Shown here: positions 19,359 through 28,817 of the stretch, piece after piece
Layout: every line of letters begins with the position of its first letter
Position numbering within the stretch: the stretch's first letter is position 1
From: an uncultured Bacillota bacterium
GTDB lineage: Bacteria; Bacillota_I; Bacilli_A; Izemoplasmatales; Hujiaoplasmataceae
Assembly: GCA_937862575.1 (NCBI GenBank)
Contig: CALMFM010000184.1
Span: forward strand, 1-34,166
Reading direction: 5' to 3'
DNA length: 34,166 nucleotides
The notes under the pieces: model-generated
Told to the model about the DNA's origin: nothing
What the model saw: only the letters and a program-made list of their open reading frames with translations
Database searches by the model: none
Translations under genes and position numbers: made by a program

Positions 19359-21743
19359 TTAATTTATCTCTATAGGAATAGTGATTTCAGGATGGTGATC
19401 CGGAATCACTTTTATTTTGGCCTTGCCGGGTTTTCCGGTTGTTTTGACATAAAAGCCGAAACTTCCAGCGGAAAGCGATGCGTGATCCGGACCAATTATG
19501 GCTAGATTATCAGTTGTTTCTATTTTGAAGCCTTCGGTTGCGTACGTTATAACATTCTGATGTTGATCGACAAGACTTACAGTGATTCTAGCAACATCAT
19601 ACGTGTCTCCGTGTATCATAAGGTTTGAATTTATTTCCGCTTTGAATTCAGTTTTCTTGGAGTGGCCTCGGGTGTCTTTGGCTACCATTTCTTCTTCGAT
19701 GTATCCTTCGGCTCTAAATGTCACTGGTGCTTCCGATTGCATAGAGAGGTATTTCTCGAAAAGGTACATTATGTCTTCCATCTTCAATTTTTTTGTCAGC
19801 GAAAGCCAACCGAAAAGGATTTTGTCACCAAGAGGCATGTCAAACCCATTAAGATTGAAACTAACCAGAAGCCTGGTTATTTTTTTGGCTAGTTTCGGCT
19901 TGAATTTCTCGTTTTCAATCAACAAGTTTCCAATCAAGTCATCTATTATGATTGGTGGGTGCGGCATGTTAGGAAATGATTCCCAATCCGGATAATACTC
20001 ACCGACAAGTTGGTCATTTTTGAATAATTTAATATATTCACAATTTGTCATCACTGCGATTTCAGGCAGACGGAATTCTGGATGATCTCCTGGAATGATA
20101 TCAGACAGAAACTTGACGAACGGTTTATCATCCAATTGCGATTTATATGTGTAGGCCGCATACTTCGGTATTCTGAACATATCCATTACACCGTGGTGAC
20201 AAACTCTATCGTTTGAGCCGAATTGGATATGGGTGTTGTAATCAGCTAAACACCAGCCGATTGCTCCGCTGATACGTTTGTATTCATAAGCTGAATCAAT
20301 TACGCTAGCATGGCGCATCGCTTGGTCCACTCTTTTGGATTCGTGATCGTATTTCTTGACCGGATATACATGTCCGTTATGCTCTGTCACAATGTATGGT
20401 ACATATCCTTGAGTGATTTTATTAGGATTTTCCAACCCGGCATTATATCCGTTATGACTGAAATCATTGTAGGAATAGATATCTTCGAGAAACTCACCTT
20501 TTTTGGTATTTCTCACGCCATGAGTTTGTCTAGTTAAATCCAAAGACCTAGCGATATCATTGGTTTTTTCATAAAATTCCTTGTCATCGGCTGATTCATT
20601 GATTCTTACGCCCCATGAAATTATCGAAGGATGATTGTAGTGATGATTAATCATCGTTTCTAGGTTTTGATAAGTCAACTCTTTGAAGTGCTCATCGCCG
20701 ATGAATTGCCATCCAGGTATTTCTTCCAATACCAACAAACCTATTTCATCACATCTGTCGATAAAATGGTCGCTTTGCATATAATGCGATGTGCGGACGA
20801 TGTTACAACCGTACTCTTTCAAAATGTCTGCGTCAAGTCTTTGCATGCTCTTAGGCATTGCATAGCCTACATATGGATAGGACTGATGTCGATTCAATCC
20901 AATCAGCTTAAGATGCTTGTTGTTGAGGAAAAAGCCTTCTGGAGAAAAACTGACCGTTCGGAATCCGAACCTCACAGTTTTTGAATCGATAACCTCGTCT
21001 TTGTCAATTAGTTCTATTTGGAGTTCATACAATTTAGGATTATCAACGCTCCATCTTGTTATTCCTTTCATCGTCGAACTATAGACGATGGAATCTGTTA
21101 TCTTGTTTTCGAATATACTTGAGAATTCCGGATTTCCTTCTTTAATAATCGTCGCTTTGACCTGAAGTTCTTTCAGGTCCTTGTTTTCGAGTTTAAGGTC
21201 AATTGAAACCAGCATTTCATCTTCATGCATGCTGGCTGCTTCATCGGTAGATACATGGATGCTGTCGATATGGATCAGTGGTAAAACCATCAGCGTAACT
21301 TCGCGATATATTCCTCCGTAACCGAGATAGTCAACAATATGTCCAAACGGCGGAACCCCGGCTATTTCTGTCGAATCAACAACAACCTGCAAGAGGTTCT
21401 CTCCAGGTTTTACAGATGATGTAATATCTACAGTAAAAGGAACATATCCTCCTTCATGTATCAACAGTAATATTCCGTTGACATATACCTTAGCAATGTT
21501 CATCACAGCGCCAAAGTTAATTTTTAGAGTATGGTTCATCATTGATTCATCTATCGAGATAATCTTTGAATAAGTACCGATAAACTGATAGTCTTCCTCG
21601 TCAAAAGAACTGAAAGGTATTTCTTTCATGGTATGAGGTATTGAAACAATCACTGCCTCATCTATATGCTTGCTGTTTAAAAATTCACTTCGGAAATCAG
21701 GAATGAAAGTCCATTCATGATTTAAAGCTAACTGTCTTCTCAT
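19359..21743 (-). CDS. Glycoside hydrolase family 2 protein (beta-galactosidase / beta-glucuronidase type)
   Basis: GH2 sugar-binding N-terminus, LKLIGLNRHQSYPYVGYAMPKSMQRLDADILKEYGCNIVRTSHY, acid/base region ISWGVRINES, nucleophile region IVTEHNGH. No signal peptide. Confidence 0.92.
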   Translation of the reverse strand: MRRQLALNHEWTFIPDFRSEFLNSKHIDEAVIVSIPHTMKEIPFSSFDEEDYQFIGTYSKIISIDESMMNHTLKINFGAVMNIAKVYVNGILLLIHEGGYVPFTVDITSSVKPGENLLQVVVDSTEIAGVPPFGHIVDYLGYGGIYREVTLMVLPLIHIDSIHVSTDEAASMHEDEMLVSIDLKLENKDLKELQVKATIIKEGNPEFSSIFENKITDSIVYSSTMKGITRWSVDNPKLYELQIELIDKDEVIDSKTVRFGFRTVSFSPEGFFLNNKHLKLIGLNRHQSYPYVGYAMPKSMQRLDADILKEYGCNIVRTSHYMQSDHFIDRCDEIGLLVLEEIPGWQFIGDEHFKELTYQNLETMINHHYNHPSIISWGVRINESADDKEFYEKTNDIARSLDLTRQTHGVRNTKKGEFLEDIYSYNDFSHNGYNAGLENPNKITQGYVPYIVTEHNGHVYPVKKYDHESKRVDQAMRHASVIDSAYEYKRISGAIGWCLADYNTHIQFGSNDRVCHHGVMDMFRIPKYAAYTYKSQLDDKPFVKFLSDIIPGDHPEFRLPEIAVMTNCEYIKLFKNDQLVGEYYPDWESFPNMPHPPIIIDDLIGNLLIENEKFKPKLAKKITRLLVSFNLNGFDMPLGDKILFGWLSLTKKLKMEDIMYLFEKYLSMQSEAPVTFRAEGYIEEEMVAKDTRGHSKKTEFKAEINSNLMIHGDTYDVARITVSLVDQHQNVITYATEGFKIETTDNLAIIGPDHASLSAGSFGFYVKTTGKPGKAKIKVIPDHHPEITIPIEIN

Positions 21744-24100
21744 TGTATTTCCTCCTGTGCTATGAAATGATACATTCTTGAGCCAAAGTCACCCATAAGT
21801 CTGACTGACTCGTTGATTCCGGATCCAATGAAATTCTGTTGAGGGACAAAACCTTTGTTCACAAGAACATCTCCGGCTATTATTCGTTCTTCTTTTTCTG
21901 TTTCGTACATATAACGATTCTTTAAAAGATGAAACAGGATTCCGTTAGGGTTGATTTTGATTGGCAAAGCGTGTTTAACCAGATAGCCGAAAGTATCGAG
22001 ATTGAAATATTGCGGTCGATTAGATACTTTATATTGATAATTTTTGTCCAACATCCGCATTGGAATTATTTCAAATCCGGAATTAGGAACTTCCAATGTT
22101 TTGAAGATTCCTAATATCGCTTCTTTCTTGTCTTTCGACACTACTGCGAATGCGGTTCCGTTTTCTAAAAAAGGATTGCGGATTCTATATAATGTCCCAT
22201 ATTGAAACAAAGTTCTGTGCTCTTTGTAAAATGCAATCTGTTGCTTGATTACTTTGTCTTCAAAAGGCGTTGTCTTGGTGATGTCGAATTCATAACCCAA
22301 CAATCCAAAAGCGCTGATATTAAACCGGGTTTCAAGTGGTGTTCTCCTTATTGCCTGGGCCGATGGAGAATCACTGACATGCGCTCCCATGACCGATTGA
22401 GGATAAAGATAACTGGTTCCATATTGAATTAATTGTCTTGAGTATCCATCAGTGTTGTCAGATGTCCATATTTGAGGCATATATTGTAACATACCAAGAT
22501 CAAAGCGATTTCCACCGGAGGCACATGACTCAAAAAGCACACCGGGATGATGGGTTGTGACTTTGTCCATTACCTCATATAGACCGAGTTGATATAAATG
22601 CAACAATTTTCCTTGGTTTTCAGCTGATAATGCAGCTGAATATAAATCGGAGAAATTCCTGTTCATATCCCATTTGACATAAGATATTCCGCTTCCGATT
22701 AATATATCGTCAAGCGTAGAAACTATAAAATCTCTGACTTCTTGTTTTGAAAGATCCAAGATGAGCTGATTTCGACCCAAACTAGGATTTGTCTTATGAT
22801 GCTTAATTACCCAATCAGGGTGGTTTTTATAGAGATTACTGTCGGGATTGACCATTTCCGGCTCTACCCAAATACCAAAGTTTAGTCCGATTCTCTTGAT
22901 TTTCTTCGAAAGGCCAGTGATTCCCAAAGGTAGCTTCTTTTTATTTGTCTGCCAATCGCCAAGTCCTTTTGTATCGTCGTTTCGTTCACCGAACCATCCG
23001 TCATCGAGAACGAAGGTCTCGATTCCCAGTTTCTTCGCTTTTTTGGCTAATTTAAGGATTTTTGACTGATTAAAGTCGAACATAGTTGCTTCCCAATTAT
23101 TATATAAAACCGGACGATCTTTTTCTTTCCAGTCCGGTTTGATTATGTTGTTGGTTATCAGTTCATGATAGTTCTGAGACAACTTGTTAAGTCCCGTCTC
23201 TGAGAAAGACATCACAACCTCTGGCGTGATGAACTCTTCTCCTTTTTTAAGTTGCCAGTAAAAATCAAAGGAGTTTATACCCATCTGAACTCTCAGCATT
23301 TCAAATGGCGTTCTTTCAAGAGTAACTTCAAAATTACCCGAATATATAAGGCCAAAACCATAGCATTTTCCATATGTTTCATCAGTCTCATTTTTCGAAA
23401 TAACTATAAATGGATTATGGTCGTTTGAAGAAACGCCTTTCTTTGAGTCAATTTTAGTGATTCCTTGACCGATTCTTCTTTTGTTGATCATTCGCTCCCT
23501 AATCCAAGCGCCATCAAAAGTGGTAAGTTGATAATCTTCGTCGAACATGTCAATATTCATACTCAAAGCTTTTTCCAATATTATATCGTTTTCAGAAGTA
23601 TTTTTGACAATAGCTCTTCTAGCAATAACATCAACCTCCGAGAATACTGAATAGAAAAGATCAGTTTCAATGCCTGTGATAGTATCTTTTAGTGTAATTA
23701 CCAAAGATTCTATCTGTTTGCCATATGCCTTTGTTTCCGGCATTGTTTTTAATTCCGGTTTAGCTATAACAACATGTTTCAAATAGTGAAAATCGGTAAG
23801 GCGTGAGCCGTCAATATGTCTGATGTGTAGCATCGGTTCTCGGAAATCGCCTTTGCCATAAGTCGGACATTCTAAAAACTCTAAATTAAGATTAAAAGTC
23901 TTGTCATTTTGATCATAAACCACTTGATTTCCAACTTCTATCTCATGTTTAACTCTAAGCCCTTCAACACCGCTATTCAAGTCAACGATTTCACCATAAT
24001 AAAGTGTACCAATGTGTCCACTTGGCAGTACTTGAACTATATATGAAGTATTTGACGTTTGGATGTGAAAGATTAGTTTTTCTTCGTCTACAAAGATCAT
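21740..24100 (-). CDS. Alpha-galactosidase, glycoside hydrolase family 36
   Basis: NNWEATMFDF, FVLDDGWFGERNDD, GIWVEPEMVNPDS, YVKWDMNR (nucleophile), FESCASGGNRFD, WTSDNTDG (acid/base). No signal peptide. Confidence 0.96.
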   Translation of the reverse strand: MIFVDEEKLIFHIQTSNTSYIVQVLPSGHIGTLYYGEIVDLNSGVEGLRVKHEIEVGNQVVYDQNDKTFNLNLEFLECPTYGKGDFREPMLHIRHIDGSRLTDFHYLKHVVIAKPELKTMPETKAYGKQIESLVITLKDTITGIETDLFYSVFSEVDVIARRAIVKNTSENDIILEKALSMNIDMFDEDYQLTTFDGAWIRERMINKRRIGQGITKIDSKKGVSSNDHNPFIVISKNETDETYGKCYGFGLIYSGNFEVTLERTPFEMLRVQMGINSFDFYWQLKKGEEFITPEVVMSFSETGLNKLSQNYHELITNNIIKPDWKEKDRPVLYNNWEATMFDFNQSKILKLAKKAKKLGIETFVLDDGWFGERNDDTKGLGDWQTNKKKLPLGITGLSKKIKRIGLNFGIWVEPEMVNPDSNLYKNHPDWVIKHHKTNPSLGRNQLILDLSKQEVRDFIVSTLDDILIGSGISYVKWDMNRNFSDLYSAALSAENQGKLLHLYQLGLYEVMDKVTTHHPGVLFESCASGGNRFDLGMLQYMPQIWTSDNTDGYSRQLIQYGTSYLYPQSVMGAHVSDSPSAQAIRRTPLETRFNISAFGLLGYEFDITKTTPFEDKVIKQQIAFYKEHRTLFQYGTLYRIRNPFLENGTAFAVVSKDKKEAILGIFKTLEVPNSGFEIIPMRMLDKNYQYKVSNRPQYFNLDTFGYLVKHALPIKINPNGILFHLLKNRYMYETEKEERIIAGDVLVNKGFVPQQNFIGSGINESVRLMGDFGSRMYHFIAQEEIQ

Positions 24101-24840
24101 TTTCCTTTTTTAATCCCTTCATTTTGAATTGTCAATATCAAATATGATTTGAAGTATGGTCTTATTACGAAATATGTCATGGCACTTACATACACAAGTT
24201 GTAGTGCAATTGCCAAAACTATAAGCCAAATAGGCGAATAAGCATAGCCATAATATATCTCTTGGAATAAAATACCAGATAAATATGCCGGTGAGATCAC
24301 CATTACATATTGCAATGCGGTCGGTATCAGATTTCTAGCATAAAAGATTGGAATTAAAGAAAAAATTACAATGTACGCAATATAGCTGACTGACATGATA
24401 GATGTAGATTTGGATATGATAGCCAATACGGTTCCGACTACAACGTGCATAACCGCAGCCAATAAATATACAAGGAAGAAAAGCAATATGTTGAAATGAG
24501 TATTCAATACAAGAGCCATGACAAATATATCTAGTACAAAAGGAATCATCAATAACAGTAATGCACTGGTTAATTTAGCCAGTATCGGCACCATTGAAGG
24601 ACATTCACAGGTTGCTAAAGGAACCAAACTCTTTTCTTCAGATTCTAAAAAGAAGCTAATTGAGAAAATGATTACAGGTAGTATAAAAACAGTGATGTAG
24701 ATGATAATCAACGCATCAAAATTAGGGAAGAAGGCCATTATACCAGCAAAAAGCAATGACAGTATCACTACTGTCTGCAAAATTCCGAACTTCAAGTAAT
24801 ATTTAAAATCACTCTTGATTATTTCAATAAATTTACTCAT
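24097..24840 (-). CDS. ABC-2-type transporter permease-like membrane protein
   Basis: About six hydrophobic segments and an ABC-2-like loop FFLESEEKSLVPLATCECPSMVPILAKLTSALLLL. SD GGAG supports the start at MSKFIEIIK (ORF track starts 3 codons earlier). Confidence 0.75.
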   Translation of the reverse strand: MSKFIEIIKSDFKYYLKFGILQTVVILSLLFAGIMAFFPNFDALIIIYITVFILPVIIFSISFFLESEEKSLVPLATCECPSMVPILAKLTSALLLLMIPFVLDIFVMALVLNTHFNILLFFLVYLLAAVMHVVVGTVLAIISKSTSIMSVSYIAYIVIFSLIPIFYARNLIPTALQYVMVISPAYLSGILFQEIYYGYAYSPIWLIVLAIALQLVYVSAMTYFVIRPYFKSYLILTIQNEGIKKGK

Positions 24841-24845
24841 GTTTA

Positions 24846-26138
24846 TCACTCCATATACTCGACATCTCGGCGATTAAGTTTTCGGCTTTCTTTAATCGTA
24901 AGCATAGTTTTACTCTTATAATCATCGAAATTGAATTTATCTTTTTTGATTCTCTTTAATACCTGTTGTCCCGAATCATTAAAATATGATACTGTATAAC
25001 TTTCAAAAGGCAATTCATAAAGGATGTCTGGATTTATCTTAACAATATCATTTTCACTACTGATTCTGTAAATATTATTCACATTGCTTTCGGAAATAAA
25101 AATTTCCGAGTCTAACACTATTATTTTACTAGTTTTAGCCATCATTGGCAACAACTCGTCGAAAACTAATTTAATCTGGCTTGTTAATCTGAATATATTA
25201 GTAATATCTAAGATTATTTTTTCGGTTCCAATTAGTGTAAGGTATACCATTATAAGTATCGTTTGTTCGGAAAGATCAAGAAGATGAAAACTTTTGTTAG
25301 AAAAAGGCAAGTTAATCATCTTCTCAAGGTATGAGTAATCTCTCAAATTTCGGGATATTCCGGACATTATAATGTTTTTAAGGTCTATCTTTCGTATTTT
25401 CATAGTCTGATGAACATTGTCAATAAAAGAACGACTTTCTTTCAAGATATTAGATACAAAAATATTGTCAGTTGAGGAATCTACAGGAAATGCATTAGTT
25501 ATTATATATGACGGATTTGTGGGTAAATCTGTCAATAAGAACGATTTATTTTCTTTATTATTTATATAGGCGTTTTTCTTAAGACCTAAAATATACCTAG
25601 TCAGCAACACATCGGCAATTTCGTCTGTATTGAATGGAAAGTCAATATAGAAATGTTTATAACTTTTGATTATCATGTCCATATCAATATCCAGATTATC
25701 AATTACCTGTCTCAGTCTTCTAACCGACCTATCGAATAGTGACTCGATACAATTATTGGAAATTTCTTGCCTAAGCTCGCTTCTTTCTAATTCAATTTTA
25801 GAAATAAAATTATAATATCGAATATCGGCAGCATATACTTCTCTGAGATTATGCCAGATTGAATCGATTATACCCTGAGGAGTATTGAGGTCGGACATTC
25901 GTTCAGAATGAGCATTAAATAGCGATATTTGGACCGTATAAACGTAATCAATCAAAGCAAAATACAGTTCTTCTTTCGTCTTGAAACGATAATAGAAACT
26001 ACCTTTGTTATAATTCGCCTTTTTTATTATTTCATTCGTTGAAGCTAATTCAAAATTCTTTGTGCTAAACTCGTTTAGAGTGGCTTCAAAAAGCTTTTCT
26101 TCTTTTTTCAATAAATATGATTTGTCTTCTTGAATCAT
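24846..26138 (-). CDS. TetR-family regulator with a C-terminal degenerate ABC-ATPase-like domain
   Basis: N-terminus EKLFEATLNEFSTKNFELASTNEIIKKANYNKGSFYYRFKTKEELYFALIDYVY is TetR HTH. The C-terminal half reads colinearly with the second half of an ABC NBD (LEKMINLPFSNKSFHLLDLSEQTILIMVYLTLIGTEKIILDITNIFRLTSQIKLVFDELLPMMAKTSKIIVLDSE). SD AAGGTGA precedes ATG at 26138. Confidence 0.78.
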   Translation of the reverse strand: MIQEDKSYLLKKEEKLFEATLNEFSTKNFELASTNEIIKKANYNKGSFYYRFKTKEELYFALIDYVYTVQISLFNAHSERMSDLNTPQGIIDSIWHNLREVYAADIRYYNFISKIELERSELRQEISNNCIESLFDRSVRRLRQVIDNLDIDMDMIIKSYKHFYIDFPFNTDEIADVLLTRYILGLKKNAYINNKENKSFLLTDLPTNPSYIITNAFPVDSSTDNIFVSNILKESRSFIDNVHQTMKIRKIDLKNIIMSGISRNLRDYSYLEKMINLPFSNKSFHLLDLSEQTILIMVYLTLIGTEKIILDITNIFRLTSQIKLVFDELLPMMAKTSKIIVLDSEIFISESNVNNIYRISSENDIVKINPDILYELPFESYTVSYFNDSGQQVLKRIKKDKFNFDDYKSKTMLTIKESRKLNRRDVEYME

Positions 26139-26155
26139 AAAAATCACCTTTTTAT

Positions 26156-26179
26156 ACTATATGGTCTATTCTATACGGT
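26156..26179 (-). promoter_or_regulatory. Candidate operator: direct repeat ACCGTATAGA-ATAG-ACCATATAGT just downstream of a TATAAT box
   Basis: Two 10-bp copies with 8/10 identity and a 14-bp period. TATAAT at 26189-26184 on the minus strand, upstream of the TetR-like gene. Confidence 0.4.
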
Positions 26180-26200
26180 TTATATTATATCATACCTTTG

Positions 26201-26231
26201 AAAAAAAGAAAAGAGGTTGTTTTTACCTCTT
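26201..26231 (-). terminator. Rho-independent terminator at the 3' end of the YcxB-like gene
   Basis: Minus strand AAGAGGT-N7-ACCTCTT followed by TTCTTTTTTTC; overlaps the stop codon region. Confidence 0.7.
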
Positions 26232-26717
26232 CTTTTTGATGAATAAACTAGCCATCTTATCTTCAAAACTCAGTCTTTCAGGTTCGGAGTCAAAGCCTTT
26301 GATATCGATAATGAACGTCTTTCGATCAACCGAGTGCAATAGATAGAATAGTTTCGCCTTACGGTACTTAATGATATCTGAATATTTCATGTTATATGAT
26401 TTGATATTATGTACTTCGAATTCTTCATCCATAAATAGGTATGTCTGCAGTACTGGTTGTTCAACTAGTGGTGATCTTTTTAGCATCCTATTCATGGTCT
26501 GCTTTTGCATCAAAGCTGTCAACCCAAGATAAAACCCTAGAATTCCAAATAATAAGCCTGCATAAGCCCATTCTTGAATCACTAACATATAAATTATAAA
26601 TACCAATGAAATTGCAGTAATTACAATGAAGTTTCTTTTAATATACGAACCTAGATAATACTTATTATAATTTACTATCAAATCTTTGTCATAAAGAGTT
26701 TTATTTCTTATTTCCAT
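26223..26717 (-). CDS. Small membrane protein, YcxB-like
   Basis: Two hydrophobic segments, then LFMDEEFEVHNIKSYNMKYSDIIKYRKAKLFYLLHSVDRKTFIIDIKGF, typical of YcxB-like C-terminal domains. Confidence 0.65.
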   Translation of the reverse strand: MEIRNKTLYDKDLIVNYNKYYLGSYIKRNFIVITAISLVFIIYMLVIQEWAYAGLLFGILGFYLGLTALMQKQTMNRMLKRSPLVEQPVLQTYLFMDEEFEVHNIKSYNMKYSDIIKYRKAKLFYLLHSVDRKTFIIDIKGFDSEPERLSFEDKMASLFIKKKR

Positions 26718-27694: not shown

Positions 27695-28276
27695 TTATAG
27701 AAATCCATATATGATAAGACCCATTATTCCCGAAATTAAGACAATAATAACAGGATGGATCCTTTTCTTCAATTTGGAAACGATTAATGATACTGCAAAA
27801 ATGATTATAGCTCCAATTTCAAAGGTGAAATCTTGATAATTGAATCCAACAATCCCAAACACACCTTTTAATATGAACACAACAGCCACTGACATTATGA
27901 TTCCAGGAACAACCGGCCTAACTCCATCAAGAAAACCTCTGACATACTTATTTGTAGAGAAGCGTTTGAAAGCCATGGCGATGAAAAGAATGATGATGAA
28001 TGAAGGGAGAACAACACCGAATGTAGCGACGATAGCGCCGATCACTCCGGCTTGCTCAAACCCGATGAAAGTCGCGATGTTTATGGCGAACGGTCCCGGC
28101 GTTGATTCCGATATCGCAATGAAATCAATCAAAATGTCGGTCGAATCAACCCAAGCATGGGTCATTACTTCATCAGTGATAAGCGGAATCATCGCATAGC
28201 CACCACCAAAGGTGAATATGCCAATCTTGAAGAAACTAAGGAACAACTGCAAGAGCAGTCTCAACAACTCAGGCAT
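27695..28276 (-). CDS. Chromate transporter half-protein (short-chain CHR family)
   Basis: FFKIGIFTFGGGYAMIPLI...AISESTPGPFAINIATFIGFEQAG: CHR motifs. Confidence 0.93.
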   Translation of the reverse strand: MPELLRLLLQLFLSFFKIGIFTFGGGYAMIPLITDEVMTHAWVDSTDILIDFIAISESTPGPFAINIATFIGFEQAGVIGAIVATFGVVLPSFIIILFIAMAFKRFSTNKYVRGFLDGVRPVVPGIIMSVAVVFILKGVFGIVGFNYQDFTFEIGAIIIFAVSLIVSKLKKRIHPVIIVLISGIMGLIIYGFL

Positions 28277-28817
28277 CCTTGTTCACCTCTTTTCCATTTA
28301 TTACCGCATAATAGATGATACCGACTATACCACCAATCAAAATGACGAATACGATCGGTATCAGATCAAAATACACCGTGACCAACCCAAATACCACAAG
28401 TATATAAGCCATGATGTTCTTATCAATCTTTTTATAGATACGAATAGCGGCGTTCAAAATCAAGACGGCTACGCCGATTCTTATGCCTTTGAAAGCATAT
28501 TCAACGTAGACATTGTCTTTATATCTCATAAGAAATGCCGAAATTATCGTGATTATAATTATTGAAGGCAAAACAACTCCCAGTGTCGCCGCAGCACTGC
28601 CAAGAACACCTTTTGTCTTGTAGCCGACATAAGTAGCTGAATTGATGGCGATCGGACCAGGAGTTGACTCCGCTATCGCGATGATATCGATAAACTCTTT
28701 CTCATCAATCCAGTGAAACTTGTCCACTGCATAGAAGTGAATCAAAGGTATCATCGAATAGCCACCACCAAAGGTGAATAGACCTATTTTGAAAAAAGTA
28801 AAAAATATCCTGAACAT
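28269..28817 (-). CDS. Chromate transporter half-protein (short-chain CHR family)
   Basis: FFKIGLFTFGGGYSMIPLIHFYAV...AIAESTPGPIAINSATYVGYKTKG. Overlaps the second half-gene by 8 nt. Confidence 0.93.
   Translation of the reverse strand: MFRIFFTFFKIGLFTFGGGYSMIPLIHFYAVDKFHWIDEKEFIDIIAIAESTPGPIAINSATYVGYKTKGVLGSAAATLGVVLPSIIIITIISAFLMRYKDNVYVEYAFKGIRIGVAVLILNAAIRIYKKIDKNIMAYILVVFGLVTVYFDLIPIVFVILIGGIVGIIYYAVINGKEVNKDA

Follow-up and report, generated by a model that had tools for sequence, protein, structure and literature searches.

Introduction

Regulators and signal proteins controlled by transporters that bind them are known, and Mlc with PtsG and GlnK with AmtB exemplify this (PMC10710835). 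The locus described here shares this logic as proposed, namely that a membrane transporter binds a DNA regulator or signal protein. Whereas Mlc/PtsG and GlnK/AmtB are separate proteins of other folds, the proposed tether in the present case is the transporter's own former ATPase, fused to the repressor.

A second point of comparison is offered by the degenerate nucleotide-binding domains (NBDs) of heterodimeric ABC transporters, in which catalytic residues have likewise been lost while the NBD is kept. Such domains usually retain Walker A, and their partner within the same transporter is an active NBD. By contrast, the operon described here provides no active NBD partner, and the protein bears a DNA-binding domain. 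A third likeness is to conventional tetR–ABC ATPase–ABC-2 permease operons, such as one in the same genome (G000:C153) and L092, which have the same parts in the same order. There, the genes are separate, the ATPase is intact, and two permeases are encoded; the fused locus has one protein, a dead ATPase, and one permease. A regulator tethered by the dead ATPase of its own transporter is new as far as could be checked, and a TetR–NBD fusion was not found described in the open-access literature.

The stretch of DNA analyzed (the window, 34,166 nucleotides) comes from a member of the Izemoplasmatales, which are wall-less bacteria. An earlier note, made from the letters alone, had proposed that one of its genes encodes a TetR regulator fused to a degenerate ABC-ATPase-like domain.

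Domain organization of the fusion protein

Judged by orthologs, profiles, and predicted fold, the protein is a complete TetR repressor followed by a domain descended from an ABC-2 transporter ATPase (the pseudo-NBD). Its parts are as follows:

24846..26138, minus strand: tetR–pseudo-NBD fusion gene, 430 aa (ORF translation; orthologs)
25563..26138, minus strand: TetR part, residues 1-192, helix-turn-helix (HTH) plus full helical core (PF00440, AF2, Foldseek)
25953..26090, minus strand: TetR_N helix-turn-helix, residues 17-62 (Pfam PF00440, E 2.5e-11)
24849..25562, minus strand: pseudo-NBD, residues 193-430 (238 aa), assigned to an ABC-2 transporter ATPase (orthologs, profiles, fold)

The reading frame is real and had been delimited correctly, with an ATG start at 26138, an AGGTGA ribosome site, and a TGA stop at 24848-24846. 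The HTH is as canonical as the earlier note had claimed, and its NKGSFYYRF stretch is almost invariant across the fusion family. AF2 helices span residues 6-183, of which 55-183 form the core past the HTH, and the full-length model finds TetR structures in Foldseek with prob 1.00. Pfam and NCBIfam scans both yielded TetR alone, with no match to the C-terminal half; a beta-lactamase model from NCBIfam in that half (E 0.2) was set aside as noise.

Descent of the C-terminal domain

Family profiles all miss this domain in the window protein, so its descent has to be argued through intermediates. Among same-locus orthologs, the Pfam model ABC_tran scores best on L033 (3.8e-24), followed by L040 (2.1e-13), L031 (8.5e-13), L036 (2.5e-9), and L039 (1.2e-8); on L038 it falls slightly below the cut-off, on L034 and L035 the score is gone, and L050 matches a different P-loop model. 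In hhalign, a profile of 11 degenerate C-terminal halves matched the longer same-locus orthologs (Prob 94.6, E 7e-8, 149 columns), and these in turn matched ordinary unfused ATPases (Prob 100, E 5.5e-43, 280 columns), with all controls (20 column-shuffled and 2 reversed) at Prob <= 0.7. Direct comparison of the degenerate set with ordinary ATPases gave the correct register at p 0.055, which is not significant.

The C-terminal domain was also folded separately, since Foldseek with the full-length model is swamped by TetR matches. From an MSA of the 11 degenerate rows alone, AF2 produced a model with pLDDT 85 and pTM 0.81. Among its top 50 hits in the PDB, 47 are ABC-superfamily ATPases (FbpC, Wzt, PotA, MalK, and LptB, plus UvrA, ABCE1, and SMC), at low TM-scores of about 0.3-0.4. 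The profile chain and the predicted fold both point to common descent and a common fold with the ABC_tran ATPases. The earlier note had staked its reading on some profile or structural likeness to ABC NBDs, and both kinds of likeness were found.

Motif slots in the window protein

The slots of the ABC motifs were assigned by alignment with unfused and fused homologs:

25464..25511, minus strand: Walker A slot, residues 210-225, reads SYIITNAFPVDSSTDN, no P-loop left (alignment)
25263..25274, minus strand: LSEQ, signature-motif slot (alignment)
25200..25220, minus strand: KIILDIT, Walker B slot, with the Asp retained and Ile in place of the catalytic Glu (alignment)
25104..25127, minus strand: KIIVLDSE, H-loop slot, with Ser344 at the position of the switch His (alignment)
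25122..25151, minus strand: LPMMAKTSKI, invariant block that is new in the pseudo-NBD clade (ortholog alignment)
24849..25031, minus strand: C-terminal beta accessory subdomain retained from the ABC-2 ATPase, limits approximate (hhalign, AF2)

The colinearity with an ABC NBD that the earlier note had read off is more than chance. The absence of a Walker A GxxGxGK[ST] is borne out, as SYIITNAFPVDSSTDN occupies the slot and aligns with the VAIIGPVGSGKST that the longer ortholog L033 retains. LSEQ does lie near the LSGGQ position, but about two residues off the exact register. The remaining assignments hold: KIILDIT aligns exactly to the Walker B LFLDEPT of homologs, TSKIIVLDSE to TVFITSH (with Ser344 in place of the switch His), and NNIYRISSEND, the block likened to ADRIAILxxGKIV, to DRVAFIVDGEI. 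Within the new LP...K.SKI block, P331, K335, S337, K338, and I339 are invariant in a clade of 13 members that includes the window protein. The beta accessory subdomain is covered for the most part by hhalign and contains AF2 strands at 380-422.

With Walker A absent and the signature, catalytic Glu, and switch His lost, the domain is the TetR-fused pseudo-ATPase of ABC descent that had been proposed. The window protein is predicted neither to bind nor to hydrolyze ATP, whereas L033, L031, L040, and L039 may still bind nucleotide.

Orthologs and stepwise decay

A search of 61 related genomes recovered the same gene at the same locus in most of the window's family; the search for the architecture in other genomes that the earlier note had suggested thus shows the fusion, with its adjoining ABC-2 permease, recurring across that family. 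A scan of named genomes placed the ortholog group in Candidatus Izemoplasmatales, with Tenericutes/Bacilli MAGs and the complete genome CP076020 (L027). The orthologs fall into two size classes, of about 430-440 aa (the window type) and 445-490 aa. Outside the window's family, no long fused frame was found with a TetR-part profile in 392 genomes of the phylum and 395 of the class, a search that covers fusions of this descent rather than independent TetR–ABC fusions. From these searches, the pseudo-ATPase-bearing autorepressor is so far found only in the window's family.

Unfused homologs carry the full set of ATPase motifs. No fused homolog has the canonical signature any more, only L034 has an unaltered catalytic Glu, and in most the switch His is changed. 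Five of them (L033, L031, L040, L039, and L050) still have Walker A; L036 and L038 have it in damaged form, and L034, L035, and the 13-member window clade no longer have it. As read from these alignments, decay took the signature, the catalytic Glu, and the switch His before it reached Walker A. The window clade forms one branch (support 100/99 at full length; 100/100 for TetR plus permease without the NBD columns). Because L034 and L035 branch outside it, and the L035 permease clusters with that of L114, whose protein retains GNHASGKT, Walker A was lost at least twice and probably at least three times.

The frame is nonetheless open at full length in all 13 pseudo-NBD orthologs, and pN/pS or dN/dS ratios of 0.2-0.43 (one of the pairs has a saturated dS) show, at the level of codons, purifying selection keeping the pseudo-NBD. 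At a mean identity of 21%, the domain is fast evolving.

The permease and neighboring genes

Two genes follow the fusion downstream:

24097..24849, minus strand: ABC-2 permease, GTG at 24849 (4-nt overlap with the fusion stop), alternative ATG at 24840 (PF01061, E 0.0042)
21740..24100, minus strand: GH36 alpha-galactosidase (PF02065, 1.9e-148)

Pfam support for the permease stays below the cut-off; in phmmer, fused-locus permeases match permease 1 of the unfused operons at 5e-12 to 3e-5, and permease 2 of the unfused operon gave no match to the fused-locus permease. The stop of the fusion and the start of the permease overlap or lie <=14 nt apart in 22 of 22 complete loci, so the ABC-2 permease that had been noticed immediately downstream is a constant partner. 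Its TM2-TM3 loop, where the coupling helix of ABC-2 permeases is expected, is variable across the pseudo-NBD clade; this drift may be a sign that docking is on its way out as well.

GH36 is probably on the same transcript as the fusion and the permease. It lies downstream in most loci, which agrees with the link to galactosides drawn earlier, but it is missing from the locus in one genus (L025, L027, L028, and L030) that conserves fusion, permease, and operator. The link to galactosides is thereby weakened to partial support, and galactoside sensing was rejected as a universal function. In three genomes of genus g8 (G011, G018, and G024), the locus has the permease (L110 2252-2995, L111 2126-2869, and L112 3631-4371) and GH36, without fusion or operator. 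The permease can therefore live without the regulator, and genus g8 is, on this genomic evidence, a natural knock-out in which regulator and operator vanish together.

Other neighbors were recorded as well. Some genera have a BadF/BadG-type kinase-like ORF (GIDGGGTKT) between permease and GH36 (L033 8203-9099, L034 5003-5965, L035 5679-6686, L113 1405-2346, and L114 1563-2492). At 26223-26717 of the window, a small YcxB-like protein (Pfam below cut-off) keeps its place beside the fusion, and the PAP2 phosphatase neighboring it keeps its position in most genera. Two adjoining chromate-transporter-like half genes upstream (27695-28817) are conserved in several relatives.

Operator and promoter

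A conserved double palindrome overlaps the promoter of the fusion gene:

26152..26182, minus strand: operator, two palindromes ACY-N4-RGT (TAAACCGTATAGAATAGACCATATAGTATAA), conserved in 25/25 fused-gene promoters
26184..26189, minus strand: -10 box TATAAT, immediately before the operator (read from sequence; placed alike in nearly all promoters aligned)
L092 upstream of 4344 and L093 upstream of 8770 (minus strand): operators of unfused operons

The spacing of the two palindromes is given as 4 bp or as 14 bp. Right after the -10 box, TAWACYNNNNRGTNTANACYNNNNRGTNTAA or a close variant occurs in 25 of 25 fused genes, with on average 15.8 of 20 consensus positions matched, as against 10.1 in shuffled upstream regions (max 10.6). 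The window genome has a single such site, at the fusion promoter, and 23 other genomes have about one each, either at the fusion promoter or at an unfused operon (G198 and G421). Extra weak matches are about as frequent as in a reversed-pattern control, and with essentially one site per genome a wider regulon was rejected. The site has the features of a palindromic TetR-type operator near its own promoter, and its conservation supports the predicted autoregulation and one-operon regulon.

Unfused TetR–ABC operons from a different family of the class bear the same double palindrome, which in L093 immediately follows the ATPase gene's -10 box. The DNA specificity would therefore predate the fusion and have outlived the death of the ATPase.

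Probable parent operons and shift of constraint

Apart from the paralogous operon of the window's own genome (L083; G000:C153), in which tetR, ATPase, and permease are unfused and the ATPase is intact, such operons occur at L092, L093, and L104-L106. Those at L092 and L093 share the operator of the fused loci and have a permease 1 homologous to the fused-locus permease, and the conventional operons are very likely the parent type, with L083 a paralog of that type. Of 34 family genomes, 33 retain the intact ATPase of the paralogous operon, among them those with a lone permease.

In the unfused set, identity is highest in the NBD (TetR 24, NBD 61, and permease 34%). In the two fused sets, it is lowest in the NBD and highest in the permease (TetR/NBD/permease 32/22/49 and 39/21/43%). 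In these comparisons, constraint visibly shifts away from the ATPase and towards the permease and the DNA-binding part.

Proposed mechanism and alternatives

On balance, we lean towards a TetR autorepressor whose dead ABC-2 ATPase domain docks on the permease, with the permease setting the state of the operon. In a conventional tetR–ATPase–permease–permease operon, the neighboring genes for TetR and the ATPase would have fused, the second permease would have been lost, and the ATPase motifs would then have decayed. The repressor dimer would occupy the double-palindrome operator and silence its own operon, while a pair of pseudo-NBDs would dock on the cytoplasmic face of the permease in the fashion of an NBD dimer. 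Membrane docking and DNA binding would be mutually exclusive or set by permease conformation; because docking or conformation would compete with DNA binding, the permease, as a receptor or through its free copy number, would decide whether the operon is on or off. The cycle would involve no ATP hydrolysis by the window protein.

Docking, and with it a coupling of repression to the state of the membrane, is the reading we favor because the ancestor of the domain would have bound the ancestor of the permease, because the adjacency of fusion and permease genes is invariant, and because helical and C-terminal accessory parts have been retained while catalysis was lost. Together, this suggests a membrane protein controlling a gene switch through a dead motor. 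Counting against it are the three genomes in which the permease persists alone, the variable TM2-TM3 loop, the fast evolution of the pseudo-NBD, the low TM-scores, and the nonsignificant direct comparison with ordinary ATPases.

The strongest competitor, which we consider unlikely yet worth serious weight, holds that the pseudo-NBD is a cytoplasmic ligand-binding or oligomerization domain and the permease a co-regulated neighbor without docking. A conserved HTH and operator would be enough for autoregulation, the permease survives alone in genus g8, and the 13-member clade has newly evolved an invariant block unrelated to catalysis. However, fusion and permease overlap or nearly abut at every complete locus while GH36 comes and goes, and what has been kept includes the helices that run from the Walker A slot to the signature helix, the region where NBDs have their permease-binding groove.

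It is less probable still that the permease remains ATP-driven, powered in trans by the ATPase of the paralogous operon, with the pseudo-NBD as a regulatory second subunit or competitor. The near-universal intact ATPase and the homology of the permease to permease 1 of that operon would fit; yet the paralogous operon has permeases of its own, and those of the fused loci sit apart on a long branch. Nor are the two operons linked, and in the window genome they have no operator in common.

The low conservation of the pseudo-NBD relative to the other two parts and the loss of the whole fusion in genus g8 could also mark the C-terminal half as a remnant heading for loss, with the TetR part alone at work. 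Given full-length frames throughout the clade, purifying selection, a confidently predicted fold, and the new invariant block, we regard this as highly improbable. Chance resemblance in an ordinary TetR extension without ABC homology, to which the blank profile scans of the C-terminal half might be credited, is refuted for practical purposes by the ABC_tran-scoring orthologs, the controlled hhalign chain, the fold matches, and the motif alignment.

Implications

Rarely can the whole path from enzyme to pseudo-enzyme be followed, as it can here, within a single gene family and mostly at one syntenic locus: it leads from an unfused active ATPase, through a fused form with Walker A only and one with nothing left, to the disappearance of the gene while the permease stays. 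Routine annotation misses the pseudo-NBD because no profile detects it in the derived members. The docking reading raises the possibility, which we hold at somewhat short of even, of a new transmembrane gene switch, in which a motorless ABC-2 permease would be the membrane receptor and the repressor-fused former ATPase its docking arm, relaying the signal to DNA. If docking is true, these bacteria would possess a direct wire from permease to promoter and thereby a natural template for such switches.
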